DNA from: a virus
Reading direction: 5' to 3' (one strand)
DNA length: 35,222 nt
Virus record (IMG/VR): IMGVR_UViG_3300047312_000123
Span: 1 to 35,222 of that record
This document shows, one piece after another, positions 5,063 through 34,714 of the stretch; within the stretch, counting starts at the first letter, position 1; every line of letters starts with the position of its first letter. The translations under genes and the position numbers were made by a program. Below the pieces are notes generated by a model, which saw only the letters and a list, made by a program, of their open reading frames with translations, did not search any database and was not told where the DNA came from.

Positions 5063-5388
5063 CTGCGTTCAAGGACGCATTTGCGAAAGCCGGAATGGAC
5101 ACGAACCAGCTCGATCTACGCATGACGAACTACGATCATTGGAAGACGACCGAGCCAGAGCCACAGGGTGAGCCCATGCCGCGGAAAAAATCTGATGCTG
5201 ACGATGAACCGCGTTTCACCGACGAGGAAAAGGCCAAGTGCGCGCTGCGCGAGGCGGCCTGGCGGCGAAGGGTATACGGCAACGCCGTCGCCAAGGGCCG
5301 TATGACGCAGGAGCAGGCCGATCACGAGATCGCCATGATGGATGAGATAGCGGATGACTATTCGACTGCGGCGAGGTTGCCGCTATGA
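5059..5388 (+). CDS. Hypothetical protein, 109 aa
   Basis: ATG 5059 overlaps the recT stop (ATGA), with GGAGG 10 bases before it; this start is preferred over an in-frame ATG at 5005 inside recT. The protein is hydrophilic and acidic/basic mixed. It carries a helical C-terminal part (EEKAKCALREAAWRRRVYG ... MTQEQADHEIAMMDEIADDY) of the kind seen in small phage proteins next to recombination modules. No enzyme motif is seen. It is translationally coupled to recT and to the next gene (ATGA at 5385), so it belongs to the same operon. Confidence 0.65.
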   Translation: MTAFKDAFAKAGMDTNQLDLRMTNYDHWKTTEPEPQGEPMPRKKSDADDEPRFTDEEKAKCALREAAWRRRVYGNAVAKGRMTQEQADHEIAMMDEIADDYSTAARLPL

Positions 5389-5729
5389 GGGCGATCTATT
5401 CCGTGACGGTCGCCGCCATCGCGGTGTTGTTGGTGACGGTGTCGCTGCGCGGATATGCGGCAAAGCCATCCGCTGCCAAGCCGGCGTCGGTGTCGTTGCT
5501 CGTCGAGCCGCCGCCGGCGAAGGCGGATCGGCTATCGGTCCCGAAGCCGCCACCGCCTCCGCCGAAGCCGGTGCCCCCGCCGCCTCCGGTCGCCGAGCTG
5601 ATCGAGCCGCCGGCCGTGGTTGCTGAGGCGCCGCCGCCCAAGCCACACGCCGATCCGGTCTGCGGGGCGCGCGGGCGGACTTGGTACACGCGCGAGAACG
5701 GATGGCGGTACTGGAGATGTAATCGATGA
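5385..5729 (+). CDS. Small membrane-anchored proline-rich protein
   Basis: Encodes 114 residues. An N-terminal hydrophobic segment (about 5-22, VTVAAIAVLLVTVSLRG) should act as signal anchor. It is followed by a Pro/Ala/Val-rich spacer with runs such as PKPPPPPPKPVPPPPP (about 53-68) that could span the periplasm. It ends in a compact Cys-containing motif (VCGARGRTWYTRENGWRYWRC, two Cys, about 92-112) of the type found in small phage and rhizobial proteins. This resembles a TonB- or spanin-like layout (membrane anchor, Pro-rich arm, small head), but no sequence match to either family is claimed. It overlaps the neighbouring genes by 4 bases on both sides. Confidence 0.6.
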   Translation: MRAIYSVTVAAIAVLLVTVSLRGYAAKPSAAKPASVSLLVEPPPAKADRLSVPKPPPPPPKPVPPPPPVAELIEPPAVVAEAPPPKPHADPVCGARGRTWYTRENGWRYWRCNR

Positions 5730-6049
5730 GGACGATCTCGGCGGCGCGGATGAAGGGCAACGGCATGGGGCATACGAATCGCATTCCGCGTGAGGGCACC
5801 CATCTGCGCAAGATATGGGACCTGTTCCAGTCCACGCCAGGCGTCGTCATACCCATGGTCATTCTAGGCAAGAACAAGAACGCCTTGTTTCAGCTCCGCG
5901 ATTTCTACGGATTGGACATCCGCTGCATCAGGTACGGCAAATGGTGCCTGTGCGGTGAATGGATTGCTGGCGGCGGCTACATCGATTACGTGGCCGCTCG
6001 GCATGGGATGGATGGAGTAAAGGAGGGCGATGCAATCAACAAAAGCTGA
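5726..6049 (+). CDS. Hypothetical protein, 107 aa
   Basis: Start overlaps the stop of the previous gene (ATGAG at 5726). A later in-frame ATG (residue 14, MGHTNRIPREG) is also possible. Residues about 20-85 (PREGTHLRKIWDLFQSTPG ... MVILGKNKNALFQLRDFYGLDI ... GYIDYVA) look like a small folded domain of winged-helix character, as seen in phage proteins that begin PREGT..R.IY. No catalytic residues are identified. Last gene of the recombination-linked overlapping string. Confidence 0.55.
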   Translation: MRTISAARMKGNGMGHTNRIPREGTHLRKIWDLFQSTPGVVIPMVILGKNKNALFQLRDFYGLDIRCIRYGKWCLCGEWIAGGGYIDYVAARHGMDGVKEGDAINKS

Positions 6050-6085
6050 TCTGGGAATCAAACACTTTCACATGAGGTAACAGAA

Positions 6086-6745
6086 ATGAAGAAGCTTCTA
6101 GCTACGACCGCCATCCTGGCGGCGCTCACTCTACCGGCTTCGGCCACCATCCTCGACTGGAACTTCCAGGACCATCTCGGCGTGCTGCCCAACACGCAGA
6201 CCTTCACGGCCGGCGGGTTTGGCCTCAGTGCTCGTGGCTTCACGGCCAGTGATGCTGGCACCGCCCTGTTCGGCAAGAACGGAGGCGGTGACGAGAACGG
6301 TCTCGGCCTCAACAATGACGCATCCGGCGATCACGAAATCACCGGGGGCAACTTCGTCCAGTTGAACCTGGACGGCCTATTGGGCCTCTTGGACATCAAC
6401 TCCTTCACCTTCCAGATGGGCTCGACCACCCAGGGCGAGGGCTGGAAAGTGTTCGGTTCGAACGACGCCCATCCGTTCCAGTTCACGCTACTCGCCCAGA
6501 GCAGCGGCACCGGCGACGAGGGCTTCCACACCCTCGCCGGTGGTTGGGACAACTACAACTTTTTCTACTTCGGTTCCGGCGTTGGCGCTTGCGGTTCCGG
6601 CTGCAACGCCAACGTGCTGCTGACCAACTTCGACGCCACCTTGGCGGCCACCCCGCTGCCTGGCGCTCTTGGCTTCTTTGCGGCCGGATTGCTTGGTTTG
6701 GGTGGCTTGGTGCGCAGCCTCCGCAAACAGTGTGGCGTTGCGTAG
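6086..6745 (+). CDS. Secreted protein with VPLPA/PEP-CTERM-like sorting tail
   Basis: A 219-residue exported protein. The N-terminus is a textbook Sec signal peptide (MKKLLATTAILAALTLPASA, cleavage after residue 20). The body is Gly/Asp/Asn/Phe-rich and beta-like, with the look of PEP-CTERM 'choice-of-anchor' proteins (NGLGLNNDASGDHEI, LLDINSFTFQMGS, WKVFGSND). The C-terminus has the full tripartite sorting signal: TPLPG (189-193), a hydrophobic stretch (about 194-210) and a basic end (RSLRK). This is the pattern handled by exosortase systems. It sits alone, with a good RBS (gaggtaacagaaATG) before it and a strong hairpin after it, so it looks like an independently expressed cargo gene rather than part of phage replication. 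Function in the host envelope or biofilm matrix is inference. Confidence 0.85.
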   Translation: MKKLLATTAILAALTLPASATILDWNFQDHLGVLPNTQTFTAGGFGLSARGFTASDAGTALFGKNGGGDENGLGLNNDASGDHEITGGNFVQLNLDGLLGLLDINSFTFQMGSTTQGEGWKVFGSNDAHPFQFTLLAQSSGTGDEGFHTLAGGWDNYNFFYFGSGVGACGSGCNANVLLTNFDATLAATPLPGALGFFAAGLLGLGGLVRSLRKQCGVA

Positions 6746-6788
6746 TGCAAGAGTAGGCTGACGTTGCTTCCCGCTCCGTCAGCGTACA

Positions 6789-6837
6789 GGCCCGCCGGGA
6801 TGATACCGCCATCCATCGGCATCCCGCCCGGCGGGCC
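6789..6837 (+). terminator. Long GC hairpin, probable terminator
   Basis: GGCCCGCCGGGATG (6789-6802) pairs with CATCCCG-c-CCGGCGGGCC (6820-6837), one bulged base and a 17-nt loop. There is no long T tail (ACTTTG), so it may be a rho-assisted or mRNA-stabilising hairpin closing the PEP-CTERM-like gene. Confidence 0.55.
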
Positions 6838-6842
6838 ACTTT

Positions 6843-6968
6843 GTGACTAGGCATAGACCCAACCGAAAACGACGCCACAAGGTGGCCGCCCATTGGCGAG
6901 TCATCCGCCTCAAGAACGGTCGTAAGAAGCGTATCCAGGTCAAGAGCAGCGAACGTGGAGGAAAATGA
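6843..6968 (+). CDS. Very small basic protein, 41 aa
   Basis: An open frame from GTG 6843 to TGA 6968 encodes 41 residues, about 40% Arg, Lys or His (RHRPNRKRRHK ... RLKNGRKKRIQVK). GTGGAGGAAAATG near its end supplies the RBS for the next gene, and its stop overlaps that start (ATGA). Such a charge pattern could bind nucleic acid or simply be spurious. The tight overlap supports it being translated. No family recognised. Confidence 0.4.
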   Translation: MTRHRPNRKRRHKVAAHWRVIRLKNGRKKRIQVKSSERGGK

Positions 6969-7207
6969 CCATGCAAATCCCGATACCGCTCGGGCTCGTG
7001 CGCCTGGTGGACCACATTCAGGACTGGGGCAGCCAGACGCTCTATGGCCCGTTCCGCCGTATGGACCCGGTCATCGCCGTGACGGCCGTTGCCGTAACCG
7101 GCTGGTCCTGGATCACTGGCGGCTGGTTTCCAGCCCTGCAGACCGCCGCCAGCTTCCTGTTCGGGGTCATGGCAGTCGTGCTGCTGATGCCGCCAGAAGA
7201 AAATTAA
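6965..7207 (+). CDS. Small two-helix membrane protein
   Basis: Encodes 80 residues with GGAGG 7 bases before the ATG. Two hydrophobic segments (about 36-53, VIAVTAVAVTGWSWITGG, and about 60-76, ASFLFGVMAVVLLMP) follow an amphipathic N-terminus. The layout is compatible with a holin-like or other small inner-membrane phage protein. No lysin gene is nearby, so a lysis role is only a possibility. Confidence 0.55.
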   Translation: MTMQIPIPLGLVRLVDHIQDWGSQTLYGPFRRMDPVIAVTAVAVTGWSWITGGWFPALQTAASFLFGVMAVVLLMPPEEN

Positions 7208-8667: not shown

Positions 8668-8994
8668 ATGAGCGATGACGATTTTCGCACCATCCTGCGG
8701 GCCATAGACGGGCTGCAGGCCGAGCTCGCGCCCGTACGCGAGCAACTTAAGATAATCGAGATAAAAGTCAGCGGTATTCCGCTGATAGCTGAGTCAACCC
8801 ACGACTTGCGTCGCGACCTGCGAATGGTGAAGGCCGCCATCAACGACATGGCGCGCGTTAACATCACCGCCGGAGAGGTTGAGGCGCTCCACGAAGAGAT
8901 CGACAAGATACAGGCTGAGAATGCAGAGCTTGCGACGCGCCTCGCCACCGTCGAACGGCTTCTCGCCGATACCGGAGCTTCCGATGAGCGATAG
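8668..8994 (+). CDS. Coiled-coil hypothetical protein, 108 aa
   Basis: Starts 28 bases after the regulator; its last 11 bases overlap the integrase start. It is helical throughout. The C-terminal half (VEALHEEIDKIQAENAELA and TRLATVERLLAD) has a clear heptad pattern typical of a dimeric coiled coil. No DNA-binding motif is seen. The overlap suggests translational coupling with the integrase. Confidence 0.55.
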   Translation: MSDDDFRTILRAIDGLQAELAPVREQLKIIEIKVSGIPLIAESTHDLRRDLRMVKAAINDMARVNITAGEVEALHEEIDKIQAENAELATRLATVERLLADTGASDER

Positions 8995-10213
8995 ACCCAA
9001 AGTCGCAGACTCTCCGGGGCTCGTTTGGGCACCCCGTAAATCCGGCTGGGTGGCCGAATGGCACGCCCGCACCGATCTGATCAAGCGCGGGTTCCTGCCC
9101 CAGCGCGCCCGCGTCTGGGCCGGGGAATGGCCCTCCGAGACGGACTGCGCCCTGATCTCCGACCAATGCACCCGCCTCCAGGCCGAGATGCTGGTCTGGG
9201 GCCGCGGCGGCATCCCGGTGATCGCAGACGCCTTCGACGGCACGCTGGGCAGCCTGATCCGGCTCTACCAGACCGACAAGGATTCCTCGTATCAGGAGCT
9301 TCGCTACGCGAGCCGGATGAACGACGACAGCCGGTGCAAGCTGATCGCCAGGGACTACGGCGACACGCTGCTTTCTGACATCGACGCCCGCATGATCAAG
9401 GATTGGTGGCGGGCGTGGACCTCGGACGGCCGGACCCCGTCAGCCCATGGCAAGGTCGGGCAGCTCCGCACACTCTTCGCGTTCGGCTCCACCTTGGTCG
9501 GAAAGCGCGGAGATCCCGAATGCCGGCGGTTGCGCGAGGATGCCGGACTGCTGCGCTTCAAGATGGGCAAGCCCCGGAAGGAATACATCACGGCGACCCA
9601 GGCACTCGCCATCATCGCCAAGGCCCACGAGCTCGGCCGCCACTCGATCGCGCTGGCCCAGGCGTTCCAGTTCGAATGCACCCTGCGGCAAAAGGATGTG
9701 ATCGGGGAATGGGTCCCGATGGGCGAGCCGGAACTGTCGGATGTCCACGACGGTCAATGGAAGTGGCTTCGGGGTCTCCGGGGCGAAGAGATCGACGCCA
9801 ATTTGATCCTGCGCCACATGACCAGCAAACGGCAGAAGCCGGTCGAGGTCGATCTGCGCCTGGCCCCGATGGTCATGGCGGAACTGGATCTGGCCGGCAA
9901 GTTCCCCGAGAAGGGGCCGCTGATCATTTGCGAGGCAACCGGGGTGGCGTGGCAAGCCAAGAACTTCCGCGAGAAGTGGCGCAAGGTCGCGACTGCGGCC
10001 GGAGTCCCAAACCACGTTTGGAACATGGACAGCCGGGCCGGCGCGATCACGGAAGGGACGGACGTTGCCGCCATGGATGACGTTAGGCGCACCGCGACCC
10101 ACAGCAACGTCAGCCAGACCCAAGCCTACTCGCGGGACGACACCAAGGCGATCGCCAGGGTCATGAAAGGCCGCGCCGCGAGCCGGAACAAGGCGGGAAC
10201 GGATGCGTCGTAA
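8984..10213 (+). CDS. int: Tyrosine-recombinase integrase
   Basis: Encodes 409 residues from ATG 8984, which overlaps the previous gene; further in-frame sequence upstream lies inside that gene. The N-terminal arm and core-binding region (about 80-200) precede a catalytic domain with R235 (CTLRQKD), K282 (TSKRQK), R351 (DSRAG), H373 (ATHSN) and nucleophile Y382 (QAYSR). The H-to-Y spacing of nine is canonical. The usual box II H-x-x-R is M-D-S-R, so the first His is replaced by Met, a substitution position known to vary in phage integrases. It would integrate the phage at attB and, with an excisionase, remove it. It ends the plus-strand block, and attP is most likely in the adjacent gap. Confidence 0.88.
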   Translation: MSDRPKVADSPGLVWAPRKSGWVAEWHARTDLIKRGFLPQRARVWAGEWPSETDCALISDQCTRLQAEMLVWGRGGIPVIADAFDGTLGSLIRLYQTDKDSSYQELRYASRMNDDSRCKLIARDYGDTLLSDIDARMIKDWWRAWTSDGRTPSAHGKVGQLRTLFAFGSTLVGKRGDPECRRLREDAGLLRFKMGKPRKEYITATQALAIIAKAHELGRHSIALAQAFQFECTLRQKDVIGEWVPMGEPELSDVHDGQWKWLRGLRGEEIDANLILRHMTSKRQKPVEVDLRLAPMVMAELDLAGKFPEKGPLIICEATGVAWQAKNFREKWRKVATAAGVPNHVWNMDSRAGAITEGTDVAAMDDVRRTATHSNVSQTQAYSRDDTKAIARVMKGRAASRNKAGTDAS

Positions 10214-25349: not shown

Positions 25350-25461
25350 CGCCGTATGCCTCTATGACCCTATGCTCTCCCGGCACCACGATCACACGTT
25401 CTTCCGCAGGAACAACGCTGATCCTGATCTGCTCCGGCACGATGATCGTATCCTCGCTCAT
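25333..25461 (-). CDS. Tiny protein, 42 aa
   Basis: ATG 25461 overlaps the stop of the collagen-like gene (ATGA-type, TATGAGCG), and its end overlaps the next gene. Sequence is beta-strand like with repeats of valine-rich pairs ([33 protein letters not shown]); three V-P-x-E units suggest a small repeat. Its position between coupled genes supports it being real, though function is unknown. Confidence 0.55.
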
Positions 25462-26759
25462 AGCAACGCCCCATAGAACGTCGTGACGAAATTGACCGCA
25501 GCCACCGTCGTCGTGGTGGCGGAAGGTGAGAAGCAATAGCACTCGTAGTAGTCGGTACCGTTGGCCTGGTCGACGGTATCCACCTGAGTATACGCCGAAT
25601 TCGACGTAGACTGCGCGCCATTTTGCACGATGCAGGCGCCGTTCTTGAATATCATGACCTGCGGAAACACGTTGTTGCGGACGCCTGCCGAAAAAAACAG
25701 CCCGGCCCCGAGATGCACGATCCCGGCCGACGGCGTCCAACGAAAATTGGTGGCGTCGTACTTGTTATTGACGTCGAATACCTTGGTGGCGAACTTGAGT
25801 TTGGTGTTCGTGCTGTCGACAATGCCGGTCTGGTTGGTTGCCAGCTTGGCCCGGAATGCATCCTTGATGCCGGGTGGCGATCCCGTGGGGCCTGTCGTAC
25901 CGGTCGAGCCGGTCAAGCCGAGTGGCCCGGTCAATCCGGTGGGTCCCGTAGGGCCGATCGCGCCCGCAGGACCCGTGTTGCCGGCTGGGCCCGTAACGCC
26001 GATGCCCGTGGGGCCGACACCAAACGGACCCGTATTGCCGGTTGGCCCGGTCAAGCCTAGAGGGCCAGTCGGACCCGTCAACCCGCGCGGGCCGGTATAT
26101 CCGGTCGGCCCGTCGACGCCGTTGTAGCCGTCGACACCGCGAGGGCCGGTGGCGCCGACGCCAGGACCTGTGGGCCCCGTGGCGCCTGTAGTCGAAGCAA
26201 ACCCCGCCGGACCTGTTGCGCCAAGTCCCGTCGGCCCGGTGGCCCCTGTCGATCCCAACGCACCCGTTAGTCCAGTCGGTCCTGTAAAACCCGCGACACC
26301 CTGTGGTCCCGCAAATCCTATGACGCCCTGCGGCCCCTGCGGGCCCACCACGCCCTGCACCCCGGCCACCCCCGACGAGCCAGTTGGTCCCGTAAAACTC
26401 GACCCGGTAGCCCCAGGGGGACCGTTGGCGCCCACGAACCCCACCGGACCCTGCGGTCCCGTCGATCCGGTGGCACCCTGAAGAGCCGCCTGACCAGGCG
26501 CGCCCGTCGGCCCGGTCTGTCCGATACCAGCCGGGCCCGTAGCCCCGGTCGACGATGCTGCACCAGGAGAACCGGTCGGCCCGATTGGCCCAACATTACC
26601 CAAGGCGCCGGGTGCCCCAGTAGCGCCAGGCGCACCCGTCGGACCGCCAGCAGGACCGGTCGGGCCAGGACCACCCGCAGGACCGGACGGGCCCGCAGGC
26701 CCCGACACCACCACAACCGGGCGGGTCGCGATCGGTGCTGCGGGCGCCGGGTTGGCCAT
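25458..26759 (-). CDS. Collagen-like fibre protein with C-terminal head (433 aa)
   Basis: N-terminus [20 protein letters not shown], then about 270 residues of Gly-X-Y triplets rich in GPTG, GATG and GPQG (about 18-300). A globular C-terminal head follows (about 305-433: [49 protein letters not shown]...), resembling C1q/TNF-like heads of bacterial collagen fibres, which trimerise the triple helix. Likely a phage tail fibre or decoration fibre. The repeats are Thr- and Pro-rich, with no long interruption. Confidence 0.85.
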
Positions 26760-26760
26760 A

Positions 26761-27228
26761 TCAGCCTATTCTCCAAGCCGTTCCATCGGCAAACACCGGC
26801 ACCTTGTTGCTGCCACCTCCAGCTACGACACTGTTGAACGTCGCAACAGTCGCATCCGTGACGAAATTGCGGCCACCCACCGTACTCGCTGCTGGCAAAC
26901 TAGACACCGTATTAGGTCCACCTATCGTTCCGGTCGGACCAGTCGCTCCGATGGCTCCAGTCGGCCCAGCGACAACCGACGGCGAGCCGATCCCCGGCGG
27001 CCCCGTGTTTCCCGTCGGTCCCGTGAACGCGCCGGCACCGGGCGAGCCTGTCGGACCCGTGTAGCCGACAACGCCGGTAGCGCCCTGCGGACCAGTGGCG
27101 CCGGTGACGGAAGCAGACCCCTGCGCGCCCGTCGGGCCAGTCGGGCCGCCGCTTGGACCCGTTGGACCACCAACAACCGCGACTGGGCGCGCCATGATGG
27201 GAGCAGGAACGGAAGGTTGCGTTGCCAT
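26761..27228 (-). CDS. Collagen-like protein, 155 aa
   Basis: N-terminus ends in [20 protein letters not shown], paralogous to the other collagen-like proteins. About 70 residues of Gly-X-Y follow, then a short non-collagen end ([33 protein letters not shown]) that looks like a fibre tip. It starts immediately downstream of the spike gene. Confidence 0.8.
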
Positions 27229-27232
27229 GGAG

Positions 27233-29041
27233 CTAACTCAGTGTGATTTGAGGATCGATGTAGTACGTGACGCTCGGCTTGGCGGCGCGGACACGGGCGT
27301 GCAGGTAGCCGACCATACCGGGCTGCGGCGAGGACAGCGTGGCGGTCAGCTTGAAGGGCGACCAACCCGCTCCTGATCCACCGCCGTTCCACGTCGAACC
27401 GTCCGACGCCACCGCAGCATTGGCCGCCAGCACATTGGCCTTGGTCGTGGTGACGATGGTGCCTTGGGGGGTTAAGGCGGAGCCGAGATACTCGACCTCC
27501 AGCCAGATGTCGTCGTTATTCGGCAGGGACGCAGAGTTGATCGTGCCGCACACCGTCACCGTGACGTTAGCGCCAGTCGTTGGGTTCCATTGTGCATAGG
27601 GCTCGGCCTTGAACGGCCGCAGCCATTGCGAGTTCGCGGTGGTGACTATCTTGCGGGACTGCGCTTGCCCGGTCGGGTCGGCTGCGCCGCCGACGCGCGT
27701 GACCGAGGTCTCGGTCGTCTCGGTACCTTCGTACTGATAACGCGCAGACTTGTAAGAGGTAGCGCCACTATCGGAACGCACCGCCTGAACCACCGAAGCC
27801 GTTGTCAACGGTGTGCCAAATGTTGCCGCTGCATTCAACTTGCAGTCCTTGAACGTGAACGCGCCTGCCATCGCCTGAGAATAACTGATCAGAGTCCCCG
27901 CAATCGCGCTTAGATCGACCGCCTCGACCACAAGTTGCGGAGAGGCAGCAGCCGTATTCAAAGCGAAAAGAGTACTGGGGATAGATGAACCCGATGCCAG
28001 CGCAGACGCAGTATTTTGCCAGACAAACACACCAAAAAAGAGATTGATGGTTTGTCCAGTAGCCGAGAATTTGAGCGTAGTATTGTTGAGAATTATGGAA
28101 GTGTAAGCACCTGCAGCCCCCCATTGTATGGTAGAAGCCGCACCTGTACTCAATAATTGCAAGGAGCAATTATCTAAATTAATTCCGCCGACACCGGTAC
28201 CGACAACGACATTAACCGTAGCGCTGCTCCCGCTCCCAGACTGAAACGTCACGCCATAAAAATACAGAGTTGAAGTGCTGCCAGAGAGCACCAAACCTGA
28301 CGTACCGGTGGCCGCAACCGTCGCACCTGTCGTCAGATTGCCAGATGTCGGTGGATAACTGCCTGAATGATTATGACACAATATTTTGTTAAGCAACCCA
28401 GCGGAAGCTGGCGGAGAAATAGTAATCGCCGTCGCCTGCGACTCGGCGTGGTTGTCGCCGACATAGATCGTATTACCGGCAGCGAACCAGTTTAAGGTGG
28501 CGGCGTTGGGGATGCGCGCGTGCGGCGCTTGACCACCAGTGAAGTTACCAACCACACCCAGGCAGGTCCATGTGACCGTGCTGTCCACCTGTGTTGTGCC
28601 AGCGGTGTTGTTGGCCCATGCCGGCTCGGATGCACCTGTGCTCCCGGCCGTCGAGCATATCCAGTAGCTCGCGCCGTTGTTGCGCTGAATAATCGCACCG
28701 AGCGTGACGGCCGACGAAATCGCCTTTGCGGCTGCCCAGGTCGGCGTATTGGTCAGGTCGCCGTTGACAGCAGACGCGCCGGTGCATTCCTGCCACGTCG
28801 CGGTGCCGTCCGTCGTTCGCGCGCCTCTGGTGGTGACCCACGTCGCGTCGGTTACGTTCGCGGTCGTACCTGCAATGATGCAGACAAACACCCGCTCGCT
28901 ACCGACCGCAGGAGCAGTAAATTGCCGAACCAATTGCCCAGCCGTGACCGCCGTGTTCTGGGGCCTTTTAGCAACTGCATAGTGACCGGTGGTGCTTTGA
29001 TCCCCCGCGTTGCAGTACCAGGTCGTATCAAATAGAGCCAT
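27233..29041 (-). CDS. Tail spike/fibre-like protein (602 aa)
   Basis: Beta-rich, Thr/Ser/Ala/Gly-rich sequence with the look of a parallel beta-helix spike. The N-terminal part (about 1-200) has repeated short W-containing units ([31 protein letters not shown]). The central part is ordinary beta-helix-like repeats ([40 protein letters not shown]). The C-terminal region (about 470-602) includes [20 protein letters not shown] and a final folded domain (LKLTATL-like strands, [18 protein letters not shown]). Likely contacts the host surface; no lyase motif identified. Confidence 0.65.
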
Positions 29042-29623
29042 CTAGAACAGCCCTCCCGCAATCAACATCGTCGAGTAAGGGCCGGTCATGCCGGTTGAAC
29101 CGGTAGGGCCGGTCGCTCCGGCCGTGCCTGCGCCACCAGCAGCACCTGTCATGCCGGTTGGCCCCGTCGTTCCAGGCGCTCCAGCACCGCCAGCCGAACC
29201 AGCTTGACCTGTAGCACCAGTCGGCCCGGTCGCCCCCGCCGATCCGACGCCGCCGCCTGCACCTACAGCACCTGTCGAACCCGATGGGCCGGTCGCTCCC
29301 GTCGATCCAACACCAGTCGGACCCGTCGGTCCCGAACCACCGCCACCCGCGCCTGTTCCAGTTGGCCCAATGGCTCCCGTCGGACCCGTCGCACCAAGTC
29401 CGGTCGGCCCGGTTGATCCTGTATTGCCAACCGGGCCCAATCCGCTCGGCCCGGTCGGTCCGATCGATCCCGTGAGCCCGGTTGCTCCTGTCGGTCCAGA
29501 CGGTCCTGCCGGTCCTGTCGTAACTCCAACAACCCACACACCCCGCGACGTGTAGGTGTAGGTCACGCCGCCATACGTGTAAGTCTGTCCTACCGACGGA
29601 GAACTGGGGAAATCGATCGGCAT
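29042..29623 (-). CDS. Collagen-like protein, 193 aa
   Basis: Start taken at ATG 29623 ([20 protein letters not shown]), overlapping the stop of the upstream collagen gene. The head (about 1-35, [13 protein letters not shown]) is a short module seen in phage tail-fibre proteins that expect a substrate or partner through Y-x-Y-x-x-x-G-x-W. The rest is Gly-X-Y repeats ([15 protein letters not shown]) and a short hydrophobic end. Confidence 0.8.
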
Positions 29624-30432
29624 CAGACCACCCACCCCGGAAGCAGCAGCGTCACCGCTCCACCACTACCACCTCCGCCAGGCCCGGTCGGTCCCGCCAG
29701 CGGCGGTGCCACCTGCACCCACTGCGTGGAATTGCCGTCGTCGATCCAGATCGACAGGATGCCGGTCGTCAGATCGTACCAGAGATATCCCGGTGTCGGA
29801 GAAGCCGGCGGCGTGCTCGAGCCCGTGTAACCACCGCCACCGCTCCCACCCCCGCTTCCCGCGGCTCCCGTCGGCCCGGTCGCACCCGTATTGGCAGCCG
29901 ACCCGCCAGGGCCTGCAGGACCCACCACCCCCTGTGGACCAGGCGCTCCAGTAGGCCCAGCGGCTCCAGCTGCACCGGCACCCCCGGCTGTACCCGACGG
30001 ACCGGTGGCGCCCGTGTTGACTGCGGTGCCCGGTGTTCCAGTCGGTCCGGTCTGCCCGACGCGCCCGGTCGGACCCGTGGCACCAGTCGCACCAGTCGCG
30101 GACGCCACGCCAGGGATGCCCGTAGGACCCGTAGAGCCCGTCGGCCCGAGCCCGCTGGCTCCCGTCGCGCCCGTTGGTCCAAGCGTCCCGACACCCACCG
30201 GGCCAGTCTGCCCGATCGATCCCGTCGGACCCGTGATTGCCAGGCCGGTTGGCCCGATTGATCCCGTCGGTCCAGTGAACGCGCCAAGTCCGGTTGGACC
30301 GGTAGCCGCCGCTCCGGTAGGACCCGTAGGACCGGTGCCACCCGTCGGACCGCCAGCCGGACCCGTATGCCCGCCGACAACCACGACCGGTCGCGTCGAC
30401 ACGATGGCAGGTTCGTTCTTTATGACCGCCAC
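29623..30432 (-). CDS. Collagen-like protein, 269 aa
   Basis: N-terminus [20 protein letters not shown], paralogous to the genes at 25458 and 26761. About 170 residues of Gly-X-Y follow, then [20 protein letters not shown] (about 216-235) and [11 protein letters not shown], a P-x-x-x-L-W-Y-D...L-x-I-W-x-D module common at phage fibre ends. Ends in a hydrophobic tail ([11 protein letters not shown]). Confidence 0.8.
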
Positions 30433-32013: not shown

Positions 32014-34714
32014 TTATCCGCCCGAGATGACCTGCGCCTGACAGAGCGCAGTTCCGTCGATTACCTGATCCTTTATCTTCATAACGAGACGCTACTCTCG
32101 CTACCGCCTTTCGGCTGCTGCATGTTCCCATGCAGAGGAGACTATATCATCACCCACTTGGGGTGCCGGGCGCTTCGGACCGCTTGGTCCTACGAGCTTG
32201 CGCTCTAGTCGTTGCACCTTCCGCTCACGCGGCTTGGCTCAGGATTGGCCGGTCTGGCGTTCCCCTGAATTCACCCGGTTGTTCGATGCCGATTACTCGG
32301 CAAAGGGACTTCAAGATTGTTAATCCGTACACCTGCAGGCCGCGAAGGATCTGACCAAACGTTAGCTCAGAGCGCAGAGTCTCGAGTTTCGAAATTTGCG
32401 ATGCGAACGTAATCCCGTGGGCGTGGCCAGCAAAGATCGGAAACTCGCCCGCTGAGAAGTTGGCTGAATCGCTCGCGTTGGTCGGCAGCAGGTTCGAGAT
32501 ATACAACGTGAATCGATCAATCATTCCGAGCCGGCCATTGCGCAGCATCGAGACCGGATCGCCCGACAGATAGGCCTGCCTGAGTTCCGACTGCTTGATC
32601 TGTCGTCCGGCCCACGCCGGCATCACCACCCAGCGGCCGACCTCCGGGATGTTCTGCTCGTCGAGGCACTCCCCCATGCGCAGAAGCAGATCAATCAGAT
32701 TGGACTGACCGGCCGTCGCACCCTGCCCGACCACCGTGATCGGCGTGCCCTTGATGCCGAGGTTGAGATTGGCGTACTTCCCGGCCGTCGCGCCGCGGTT
32801 GGTCGCCGCGCATTGCCCGACGATGCCGTCGAGCACTTCCGTGTCGACCGCGATCTTTAGCTGCTGTGCCGCATCCCTTATCTTCATAACGAGACGCTAC
32901 TCTCGTTACCGCCTTTTGGGCTGCTGCATGTTCCCATGCAGAGGAGACTATATCATCACCCCTTTCGGGGGCCGGGCGCTTCGGACCGCTTGGCCCTACG
33001 AGCTTTCGCTCTAGTCGTTGCACCTTCCGCTTGCGCGGCTTGGCTCAGGATTGGCCGGTCTGGCGTTCCCCTGAATTCACCCGGTTGTTCGATGCTAATT
33101 GCTCAAGCAAAGGGACTCTGACGAATCCGACCAAATAGACAGGACATTCAGATCGCTCTGCACCTCCATCACGTCGTCGAGGATCAGAGAGAAGTAAAAG
33201 CCGTTGCCGATGTAGAGTTCGACCGAGCCTCCAGTCGGTCGATCAAGACCGAGCAAACCGTCCGCCTGATACTTGCGGATCGTGATCGTAGGCTTCGTCC
33301 GGATTTTCACCCGGTCGCCTTGGTTCGCGATTTCGCCTTCGTAGTCGGTCGCTAGCGTCTCAGGCGCTTACCTGATCTGCTTCCCACTGTCGCTTACGCT
33401 GTTGCGCACCAGGTCCCATGAACGACGGAATATCACGTACCGTCGCCAGAAGCCTGGCCACTTCAGCGCCCGGACCACTCAGTCTGTGCGGCTGGACTTG
33501 GAGTTGTTTCATCGCCAATTGGATACGCTCCGCGTCGCGGAAATGTCCCATCCTGGCGCAACCAATAAGAAAATACGCCTGATCGTTCTTGAGCACCATG
33601 TGCTTGGCCAATGCAGTTTTACCGCTCTCGAACATCGAGCGGACTTTGGCCGCGTCCATAGACAGCACCCAATTAACCATCGACGTACCATTCTCGGTTA
33701 CAAACTCCTGAACGGATCCTCCGTAAGCCTTCTGCAACAGATCGATACCAACCCGTTCGAAGGCTTCATCGCATACCGAAAGCACCGGCTGTGCCGACAT
33801 GCCCTTTGGAATGCGAATTGCAAACGATCCGTTCCCGTCGATATATCCGGCTGCCCATTTTCGTGTCGGATGTTTCGGCATTGGAGATGCGCCTCGCGCT
33901 GCATCAAACCGCTGCTTCCCCACCTGCACGTCCATAACCTCGCCGTTCATATCGATGGCGCAGTCGGCAAGTGCTCTTTTCAAGACCAGGAACTTGCGAA
34001 GCCGCATCAGAACGCTGACAGCCTTGGTGCCCGCTGTATTCCAGTGAAAAGCACCACTCTTTTCATACATTCCAATATGCCCCCACACTTTATCGAGTGA
34101 AGGCGGCGTCAGACTGGACGCAATCAACTCCATGAAACTACGACCCGGTGCTTTCTGACAAAACGAAACTACAGCGTAAGCACGCTGCGGCCCTGTTCCG
34201 TCCCAGTTTTCGCGCCGCATCGGTGGATTCCACATCAACTGAATGCTTCCATCGCTATCCAACAGTCCTGCAAGGTACTTGTCGCTGAGCCGGTCCTTGC
34301 CTCTGGTTCCCTTCGGTTCCAGTTTTTCAGGTCCGGTATTGCTCGAACTACCGTTTAATTCGAGATCGCGCTCAACACGGTTGAGGCGTAGCTTTCCGAC
34401 AAAAGCCGGACCGACTATCGCTTCAGGGGCAACCCCTGCTGGATCACTTAGTCTGTGCGGGTGCGTGCTCATGCTTCCCTCGGGTTCCAGCCAACTATGA
34501 AGGTTCCCGTTTTTCAGATCCAGTTTAAAGAAGTCCTAGCGAACTTCTCGACCAGCTTAGCTGCATTCAGAACTGATCAAATTTGGCCAGCTTGGAACCA
34601 AATTTCCGGAATAAAGCCCGTTGATTGGAGTAGGTTTCCGGTAGACCCTACGGGGGTCAGGGGCGGGACTGAGCCTGACGTTGCGCCAGGAAAACCCGCA
34701 CTCGGGATAGGCAT
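32014..34714 (-). CDS. Major capsid protein, interrupted by three group I introns
   Basis: Exons on the minus strand: E1 about 34714-34597, E2 about 33352-33125, E3 32875-32323, E4 32069-32014. E1 encodes MPIPSAGFPGATS ... LQSTGFIPEIW. E2 encodes ATDYEGEIANQGDRVKIRTK ... FYFSLILDDVMEVQSD ... IWSD. E3 encodes DAAQQLKIAVDTEVL ... RWVVMPAW ... LRNGRLGMIDRFTLY ... GLQVYG. E4 encodes QVIDGTALCQAQVISGG. This is a HK97-fold-type major capsid family; F-I-P-E-I-W, T-D-Y-E-G-E-I, D-x-E-V-L and R-N-G-x-L-G-M-I-D-R-F are hallmark segments. Removing introns 2 and 3 joins W-S-D/D-A-A and V-Y-G-Y/Q-V-I-D exactly as the family expects. The E1/E2 join is unresolved, see the findings. Scaffold-like gene upstream, adaptors downstream. 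Confidence 0.88.
32070..32322 (-). ncRNA. Group I intron 3 in the capsid gene (253 nt, no ORF)
   Basis: Read on the minus strand. P1: exon GGAT pairs with GTCC, U-G at the splice site. P2: TGCCGA-gtaa-TCGGCA. P/Q: AATTCAGGGGAACG and CCAATCCTGAGCCAAG. P6 tip CCGC-GTGA-GCGG. R: TGCAACGACTAGAG. P7.1 GAGC-GCAA-GCTC. P7.2 GGACC-aagc-GGTCC. P3 CCGGG/CCCGG. P8 CACCC-caagt-GGGTG. S: GATGATATAGTC. P9 CTGCATG-ggaa-CATGCAG and two small 3' hairpins. It ends in ...AAAGG with the terminal G. The presence of P7.1/P7.2 suggests subgroup IA, common in phages. Splicing yields the codon T-AT (Tyr) and the capsid sequence VYGYQVIDGTAL. Confidence 0.93.
32876..33124 (-). ncRNA. Group I intron 2 in the capsid gene (249 nt, no ORF)
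   Basis: About 90% identical by eye to intron 3. P1: exon GGAT-TC pairs with GAGTCC. R: TGCAACGACTAGAG. S: GATGATATAGTC. The differences preserve pairing or swap tetraloops: P8 CCCC-cgaaa-GGGG, P6 loop GCAA instead of GTGA, P7.1 loop GAAA instead of GCAA, P7.2 GGGCC/GGTCC, 3' stem TAACGAGA/TCTCGTTA. Removal from 33124 to 32876 joins TCGGAT to GATGCGG, giving I-W-S-D-D-A-A-Q-Q-L-K as expected for the capsid family. Confidence 0.93.
33353..34596 (-). ncRNA. Group I intron 1 in the capsid gene, carrying a homing endonuclease
   Basis: Boundaries approximate. Minus-strand core: P1 option AAATTTGGT/GCCAAATTT (exon U-G wobble, 5' splice after 34597) or GAAGTT/GACTTC (5' splice after 34542). P3 GGATC/GATCC. 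P4 CGGG/CCCG around AAACGGGAACC and GGAACCCGAGG. R GCACAGACTAAGTG. P8 CAGGGG-ttg-CCCCTG. S AAGCGATAGTCGG, pairing GACTA/TAGTC in P7. The core (34550-34395) is of a different lineage from introns 2 and 3: no P7.1/P7.2 is visible and the R element resembles the CACAGACTAAATG form. The endonuclease ORF begins inside the core and runs through the 3' region almost to the exon. Confidence 0.82.
33360..34472 (-). CDS. LAGLIDADG homing endonuclease (intron-encoded, 370 aa)
   Basis: Two motifs make it a single-chain, pseudo-dimeric enzyme: YLAGLLDSDGSI (about 66-77; D72 is the likely metal ligand) and WAAGYIDGNGSFAI (about 206-219; D212). Spacing of about 140 residues is normal for the family. It would cleave an intronless capsid allele near the intron site and drive intron homing by repair. 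The first about 60 residues are read from the intron core and may not belong to the folded enzyme; a later start (e.g. near RLSDKYLAGL) is possible. The stop lies within a few bases of the downstream exon. A 20-base segment encoding HRLS is repeated near both ends of the ORF. Confidence 0.9.
   Translation of the reverse strand: MSTHPHRLSDPAGVAPEAIVGPAFVGKLRLNRVERDLELNGSSSNTGPEKLEPKGTRGKDRLSDKYLAGLLDSDGSIQLMWNPPMRRENWDGTGPQRAYAVVSFCQKAPGRSFMELIASSLTPPSLDKVWGHIGMYEKSGAFHWNTAGTKAVSVLMRLRKFLVLKRALADCAIDMNGEVMDVQVGKQRFDAARGASPMPKHPTRKWAAGYIDGNGSFAIRIPKGMSAQPVLSVCDEAFERVGIDLLQKAYGGSVQEFVTENGTSMVNWVLSMDAAKVRSMFESGKTALAKHMVLKNDQAYFLIGCARMGHFRDAERIQLAMKQLQVQPHRLSGPGAEVARLLATVRDIPSFMGPGAQQRKRQWEADQVSA

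Follow-up and report, generated by a model that had tools for sequence, protein, structure and literature searches.

A phage gene for a probable exosortase-type sorting substrate, with a body exchanged between a conserved signal peptide and a conserved C-terminal tail

In the window, by which we mean the whole 35,222-base stretch of viral DNA that was analyzed, the gene at 6086-6745 on the + strand probably encodes a phage-borne substrate of the host's exosortase-type C-terminal sorting, displayed on the host envelope. Sequence comparison with related phages indicates that the body of this protein is swapped while the signal peptide and the tail on either side of it stay fixed. Two longer records (51,860 and 61,052 bases) match the window at 100% over its whole length, and the window is therefore not a chimera of one assembly. 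The upstream neighbors of the gene are RecE-like and RecT genes, which bears out the early-region location given in a preliminary description of this DNA, and genes for a major head protein and an internal virion protein lie downstream; TerL was found on the longer record G002. The features of the gene and its surroundings are as follows.

6074-6077, + strand: Shine-Dalgarno-like GAGG, 8 nt 5' of the ATG, read from the sequence
6086-6745, + strand: whole family 1 gene, 219 aa (open reading frame, relatives, selection)
6086-6148, + strand: signal peptide MKKLLATTAILAALTLPASAT (sequence comparison; the cleavage site is a prediction)
6149-6649, + strand: exchangeable beta-sandwich body (weak structural likeness to CBM and F5/8 type C folds)
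6650-6742, + strand: putative exosortase-type sorting tail, with TPLPG motif, transmembrane helix, and basic end (conservation, HMM, L159 DNA identity)
6757-6783, + strand: first 3' hairpin, GCTGACG ... CGTCAGC (compensatory changes in relatives)
6789-6837, + strand: second 3' hairpin, GGCCCGCCGGG ... CCCGGCGGGCC (motif recurrence, folding)
6965-7207, + strand: 80-aa hydrophobic small protein, the downstream neighbor of the gene in 7 of 16 contigs

The 219-aa reading frame starts with ATG and encodes a protein with the N terminus MKKLLATTAILAALTLPASAT and the C terminus TPLPGALGFFAAGLLGLGGLVRSLRKQCGVA; its tail reads TPLPG-ALGFFAAGLLGLGGLV-RSLRKQ, that is, a motif, a transmembrane helix, and a basic cluster at the very end. 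We confirmed that this open reading frame, with its signal peptide and tail, is real. The Sec signal peptide and the gene's own ribosome-binding site, both proposed earlier, hold up: the former is seen in the sequence itself, in a rule-based scan, and in an AF2 model (weak pLDDT of 65) whose N-terminal helix is followed by strands and, at residues 195-216, by a C-terminal helix, and the latter is the GAGG 8 nt 5' of the ATG. In a crude rule-based scan, this was the sole open reading frame on either strand of the window to combine a signal peptide with a tail of P-x-P/E, hydrophobic, and basic segments, and the same scan of 560 kb of related phage DNA returned 8 open reading frames of at least 150 aa versus 2 in the reversed sequence. 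Coding on the opposite strand of 6086-6745 was rejected, since stops break that reading.

Relatives of the gene (family 1) were found at 18 IMG/VR loci with 60-100% identity. The TPLPG-hydrophobic-basic tail pointed out in the preliminary description is a property of the family, with a (T/V)PLP[A/G]-helix-basic end kept in every member whose end was read. The proposed PEP-CTERM/VPLPA relationship found profile support in the relatives but not in the window protein, which passed no curated cut-off in NCBIfam or Pfam and matched neither TIGR02595 nor TIGR03370 even at an E value of 10. Its tail resembles that of VPLPA-CTERM proteins (TIGR03370), and relative L007 passed the cut-off for that model (31.4 versus 25.35 bits), which 5 of 11 family 1 members (L003, L007, L009, L010, and L018) matched at E values up to 1; sister-family members L090, L084, L199, and L201 passed TIGR02595 with more than 16 bits. 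Below cut-off, the window protein matched the XDP1 (NF041927; E 0.037) and THxN PEP-CTERM (NF038125; E 0.18) models. All 11 members scanned matched these two models weakly (best E values, 8e-5 and 6e-4), at about 20 bits against cut-offs of 125 and 85, so family 1 does not belong to either. The tail also gave a weak match to phrog_4782, whose function is unassigned (E 0.04).

The coding sequence is under purifying selection, with a body dN of ~0.08-0.15 versus a dS of ~0.6-1.1 between the window gene and its closer relatives. The tails of L003 and L018 differ by 1 nonsynonymous and 15 synonymous changes (dN 0.02, dS 1.03) and their bodies by a dN of 0.37; tail and body thus evolve separately. 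A chance hydrophobic C terminus is ruled out by conservation, by the selection acting on the tail, and by the HMM support in relatives. The PEP-CTERM/exosortase system (EpsH; TIGR02595, PF09721), whose defining features we took from Haft 2006 (PMC1569441), has in common with these proteins a signal peptide, bodies that are diverse and show little homology elsewhere, a P-x-P motif, a transmembrane helix, and a basic cluster. The genes described here differ from that system in that they are encoded by phages without an exosortase and that their bodies are exchanged with both ends kept.

The exchange is clearest among sister phages, whose TerL shares ~90% identity or more with the TerL of the window phage. 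Six of them lack the window body and still match the family 1 profile in the last 34 residues (E ~2e-9). Their DNA is ~90% identical to the window over 5378-6149 and then 87-88% identical over 6753-6919; homology stops at 6149, the end of the signal peptide, and between the kept ends they encode an unrelated 254-aa protein with a TPLPA tail. In L145/L159 (one record), this sister-phage body is joined to the exact window tail, and DNA identity between L159 and the window restarts at 6650, at the PLP codons. Given the end of homology at 6149 and its restart at 6650, the exchange boundaries appear to coincide with both ends of the mature domain. Family 3, the second body, was found at 65 viral loci; at a portal-side site among late genes, G007 and G014 carry family 1 and G550 carries family 3.

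At least seven unrelated bodies bear such tails across these phages. In G013, a second, unrelated tail-bearing gene (family 2, 24 viral loci) lies directly upstream of the family 1 gene, and the conserved family 2 body bears VPLPA, canonical PEP (VPEPSTW), or VPGPxxGAGLPG tails in different phages, with a further tail-bearing gene in tandem at several family 2 loci. The tails thus fall into PLP, PEP, and PGP classes (the last as PGP-GAGLPG on conserved bodies), and the class differs among phages. The VPGPxxGAGLPG tails (L086, L093, L097, L103, and L121) may be a sorting-tag class without an earlier description, and a similar tail occurs in one Hyphomicrobiales genome that lacks an exosortase match. 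In all six tandem pairs read (G013, L086, L093, L097, L099, and L104), both unrelated bodies carry the same tail class; with the PGP class accounting for four of the pairs and a permutation p of ~0.03, this matching between neighboring genes of one phage is suggestive.

These tails could also be explained more simply if the protein were a plain C-terminally membrane-anchored periplasmic phage protein, exported by Sec and held by a stop-transfer helix, with no sorting enzyme involved and PLP serving as a helix breaker. Such an anchor would be in keeping with the absence of exosortase from the phage records checked and from most Bradyrhizobium genomes, as well as with a window tail that falls below curated cut-offs. 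However, it has no need for tail classes that match between neighboring genes, nor would it account for the P-x-P motif staying in position in almost every tail read, on unrelated bodies and in all of the PLP, PEP, and PGP classes, for the tails that pass the VPLPA and PEP-CTERM models, or for the restart of L159 DNA identity at the PLP codons. We therefore consider a plain anchor unlikely and favor a substrate of host C-terminal sorting.

AF2 modeled the bodies as beta-sandwiches, with modest confidence for family 1 (pLDDT 65) and fair confidence for family 2 (pLDDT 77). Fold searches returned CBM and F5/8C-like matches for family 1, where TM-scores of ~0.25-0.34 of the query make the likeness only a hint, and, with a similarly weak outcome, CBM29 and FlaA1 matches for family 2; a sequence search of solved structures gave no convincing match. 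A family 4 body resembles NF038126, a family of cellular PEP-CTERM proteins, with an E value of 2.8e-10 that falls below cut-off. On the basis of these models, we hypothesize that the body might play a lectin-like role at the surface.

Moron-like behavior had been suggested for the gene, and we found that it is indeed common to phages with differing flanks, since the flanking DNA differs at most family 1 loci. Across 16 contigs, the family 1 gene occupies several different settings, early regions included; in G007 and G014 it is flanked by portal and head-morphogenesis genes, and it adjoins recombination or methyltransferase-like genes in several other contigs. The portal-side position, shared by G550, raises the question of whether the product is instead a virion or late-stage protein, for example one for decoration or entry, with hydrophobic ends that arose by chance, and the body's weak likeness to CBM and F5/8C domains, which are also found in tail fibers, points the same way. 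Yet the window gene sits in an early region beside RecE/RecT, other contigs place it beside recombination or methyltransferase-like genes, and the locus changes while the structural genes stay put. Virion proteins assembled in the cytoplasm, moreover, lack a signal peptide, which this protein has, and we judge a virion role improbable. Body exchange at one locus, strong selection on each body, and a tail acting as an address would fit a surface-modifying moron. The isolate phage records gave no match to families 1 to 3.

The structural region of the window has peculiarities of its own. The major head protein open reading frame (32225-34472, - strand) aligns with its PHROG profile in the C-terminal part alone, an HNH-endonuclease-like open reading frame (33360-34472) lies upstream of it, and a mobile intron perhaps interrupts the capsid gene. 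A 245-base direct repeat, seen as secondary BLAST matches to G001 and G002, occurs twice around the head protein open reading frame (32068-32310 and 32873-33117, 93% identity), and the virion gene region also encodes four collagen-like proteins rich in GPTGPTG repeats (25458-30432, - strand).

The strong terminal hairpin noted earlier proved to be a pair of hairpins (z = -5.8). The motif of the second was present 3' of the gene in 10 of 10 phage contigs examined, nearly always as a single copy per contig, and similar hairpins follow most family 1 and many family 3 genes. In 11 aligned hairpin sequences, 99% of pair cells are standard and compensatory changes occur at four pairs; sliding the hairpin partners destroys the pairing. 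Homology among the related sequences limits the weight of the shuffles. The hairpins match no Rfam family. A classical terminator was rejected, as they lack a T-run and were not flagged as a terminator; our guess is that they act as a terminator or mRNA-stabilizing element. Farther downstream, a 41-aa basic open reading frame with a GTG start (6843-6968, + strand; VTRHRPNRKRRHKVAAHWRVIRLKNGRKKRIQVKSSERGGK / HWRVIRLKNGRKKRI), read from the sequence, recurs in several phages 3' of genes from families 1 and 3, the portal-side site included. The 80-aa protein that follows gave no Pfam, PHROG, or PADLOC match, and a search with defense-system profiles gave no match.

The closest TerL proteins are those of Rhizobium phages (46%) and, among genomes, that of a Bradyrhizobium sp. 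139 contig (50%). Exosortase machinery exists in this lineage: PF09721 was found in 16 of 120 genomes of Bradyrhizobium, which is the nearest lead to a candidate host. No exosortase was found in Bradyrhizobium sp. 139, which alone among the cellular genomes showed a related TerL, or in the 40 phage records checked, and a TIGR03370 match was present in just 1 of 32 Bradyrhizobium genomes. Of 398 Hyphomicrobiales genomes, 5 were matched by profile A1, with the matches confined to the tail region, and the readable host proteins among them end in VPLPA-type tails. The phage tails resemble those of chromosomal Hyphomicrobiales proteins. Two of these five genomes have an exosortase and three gave no match, which suggests that in some hosts such tails may be handled by a different enzyme or by none; MYXO-CTERM and myxosortase (PMC11980579) are an example of tripartite tails of this kind being served by other enzymes. 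No tRNA that might indicate a host or attachment site was found in the window or the records scanned. An integrase HMM match was obtained in relative G550 only. A 430-aa open reading frame of the window (8921-10213, + strand), which ends ...RAGAITEG...THSNVSQTQAYSR, looks integrase-like, a divergent tyrosine recombinase by eye only, and has no Pfam or PHROG match.

Tails like those of Hyphomicrobiales proteins, together with one body like a cellular PEP-CTERM family, might also mean that the phages carry accidental cellular cargo of no benefit to them. We regard this as very improbable in view of the repeated, wide presence of three families (18, 24, and 65 IMG/VR loci) and the strong purifying selection. 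The three main bodies, moreover, had no cellular copy in a single-sequence contig scan or in profile searches of 398-399 genomes, a result of little weight in that these searches had no positive control.

The known exosortase substrates are proteins of the host envelope and matrix. The reading frame, the ends, their conservation, the exchange, the tail class, and the purifying selection of the phage gene are all apparent from sequence comparison, and we infer processing by an exosortase, a surface location, and a role for the body there. Under this proposal, Sec would export the protein and the signal peptide would be removed; the C-terminal helix would hold the protein in the inner membrane so that the PLP motif lies on the periplasmic side, where a host sorting enzyme would cut at PLP and the body would pass to the envelope or extracellular matrix. 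There, the beta-sandwich body, possibly sugar-binding, would act at the cell surface during infection or lysogeny, most likely altering attachment, matrix, or the access of other phages. In phage evolution, recombination would replace the body, with the signal peptide and tail as fixed ends, and one locus would thus offer a choice of surface proteins, with a host-compatible tail as their address.

Lysogenic conversion or superinfection exclusion by this phage, as raised in the preliminary description, may follow from such display. A parallel is Ltp of Streptococcus phage TP-J34 (PMC3952083), a superinfection-exclusion lipoprotein that is likewise a small phage-encoded protein on the host surface, although Ltp has a lipoprotein anchor, a Gram-positive host, and no sequence link to the proteins described here, and exclusion is a feature of Ltp. 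Among the open-access papers that we inspected after full-text searches, we found no report of phage-encoded PEP-CTERM substrates. We tentatively suggest, as a possibility, that these genes form an exchangeable surface-display cassette in soil-type phages, with fixed ends, at least seven unrelated bodies, host sorting borrowed, a tail class that tracks the host, and bodies that, in lysogens or infected cells, alter the cell surface, for example through exopolysaccharide binding and the blocking of other phages.

The natural body swaps between fixed address tags make the role of the tail directly testable. If our interpretation is correct, phages change the host surface via the host's own C-terminal sorting, and tail class could mark the host lineage of uncultured phages.
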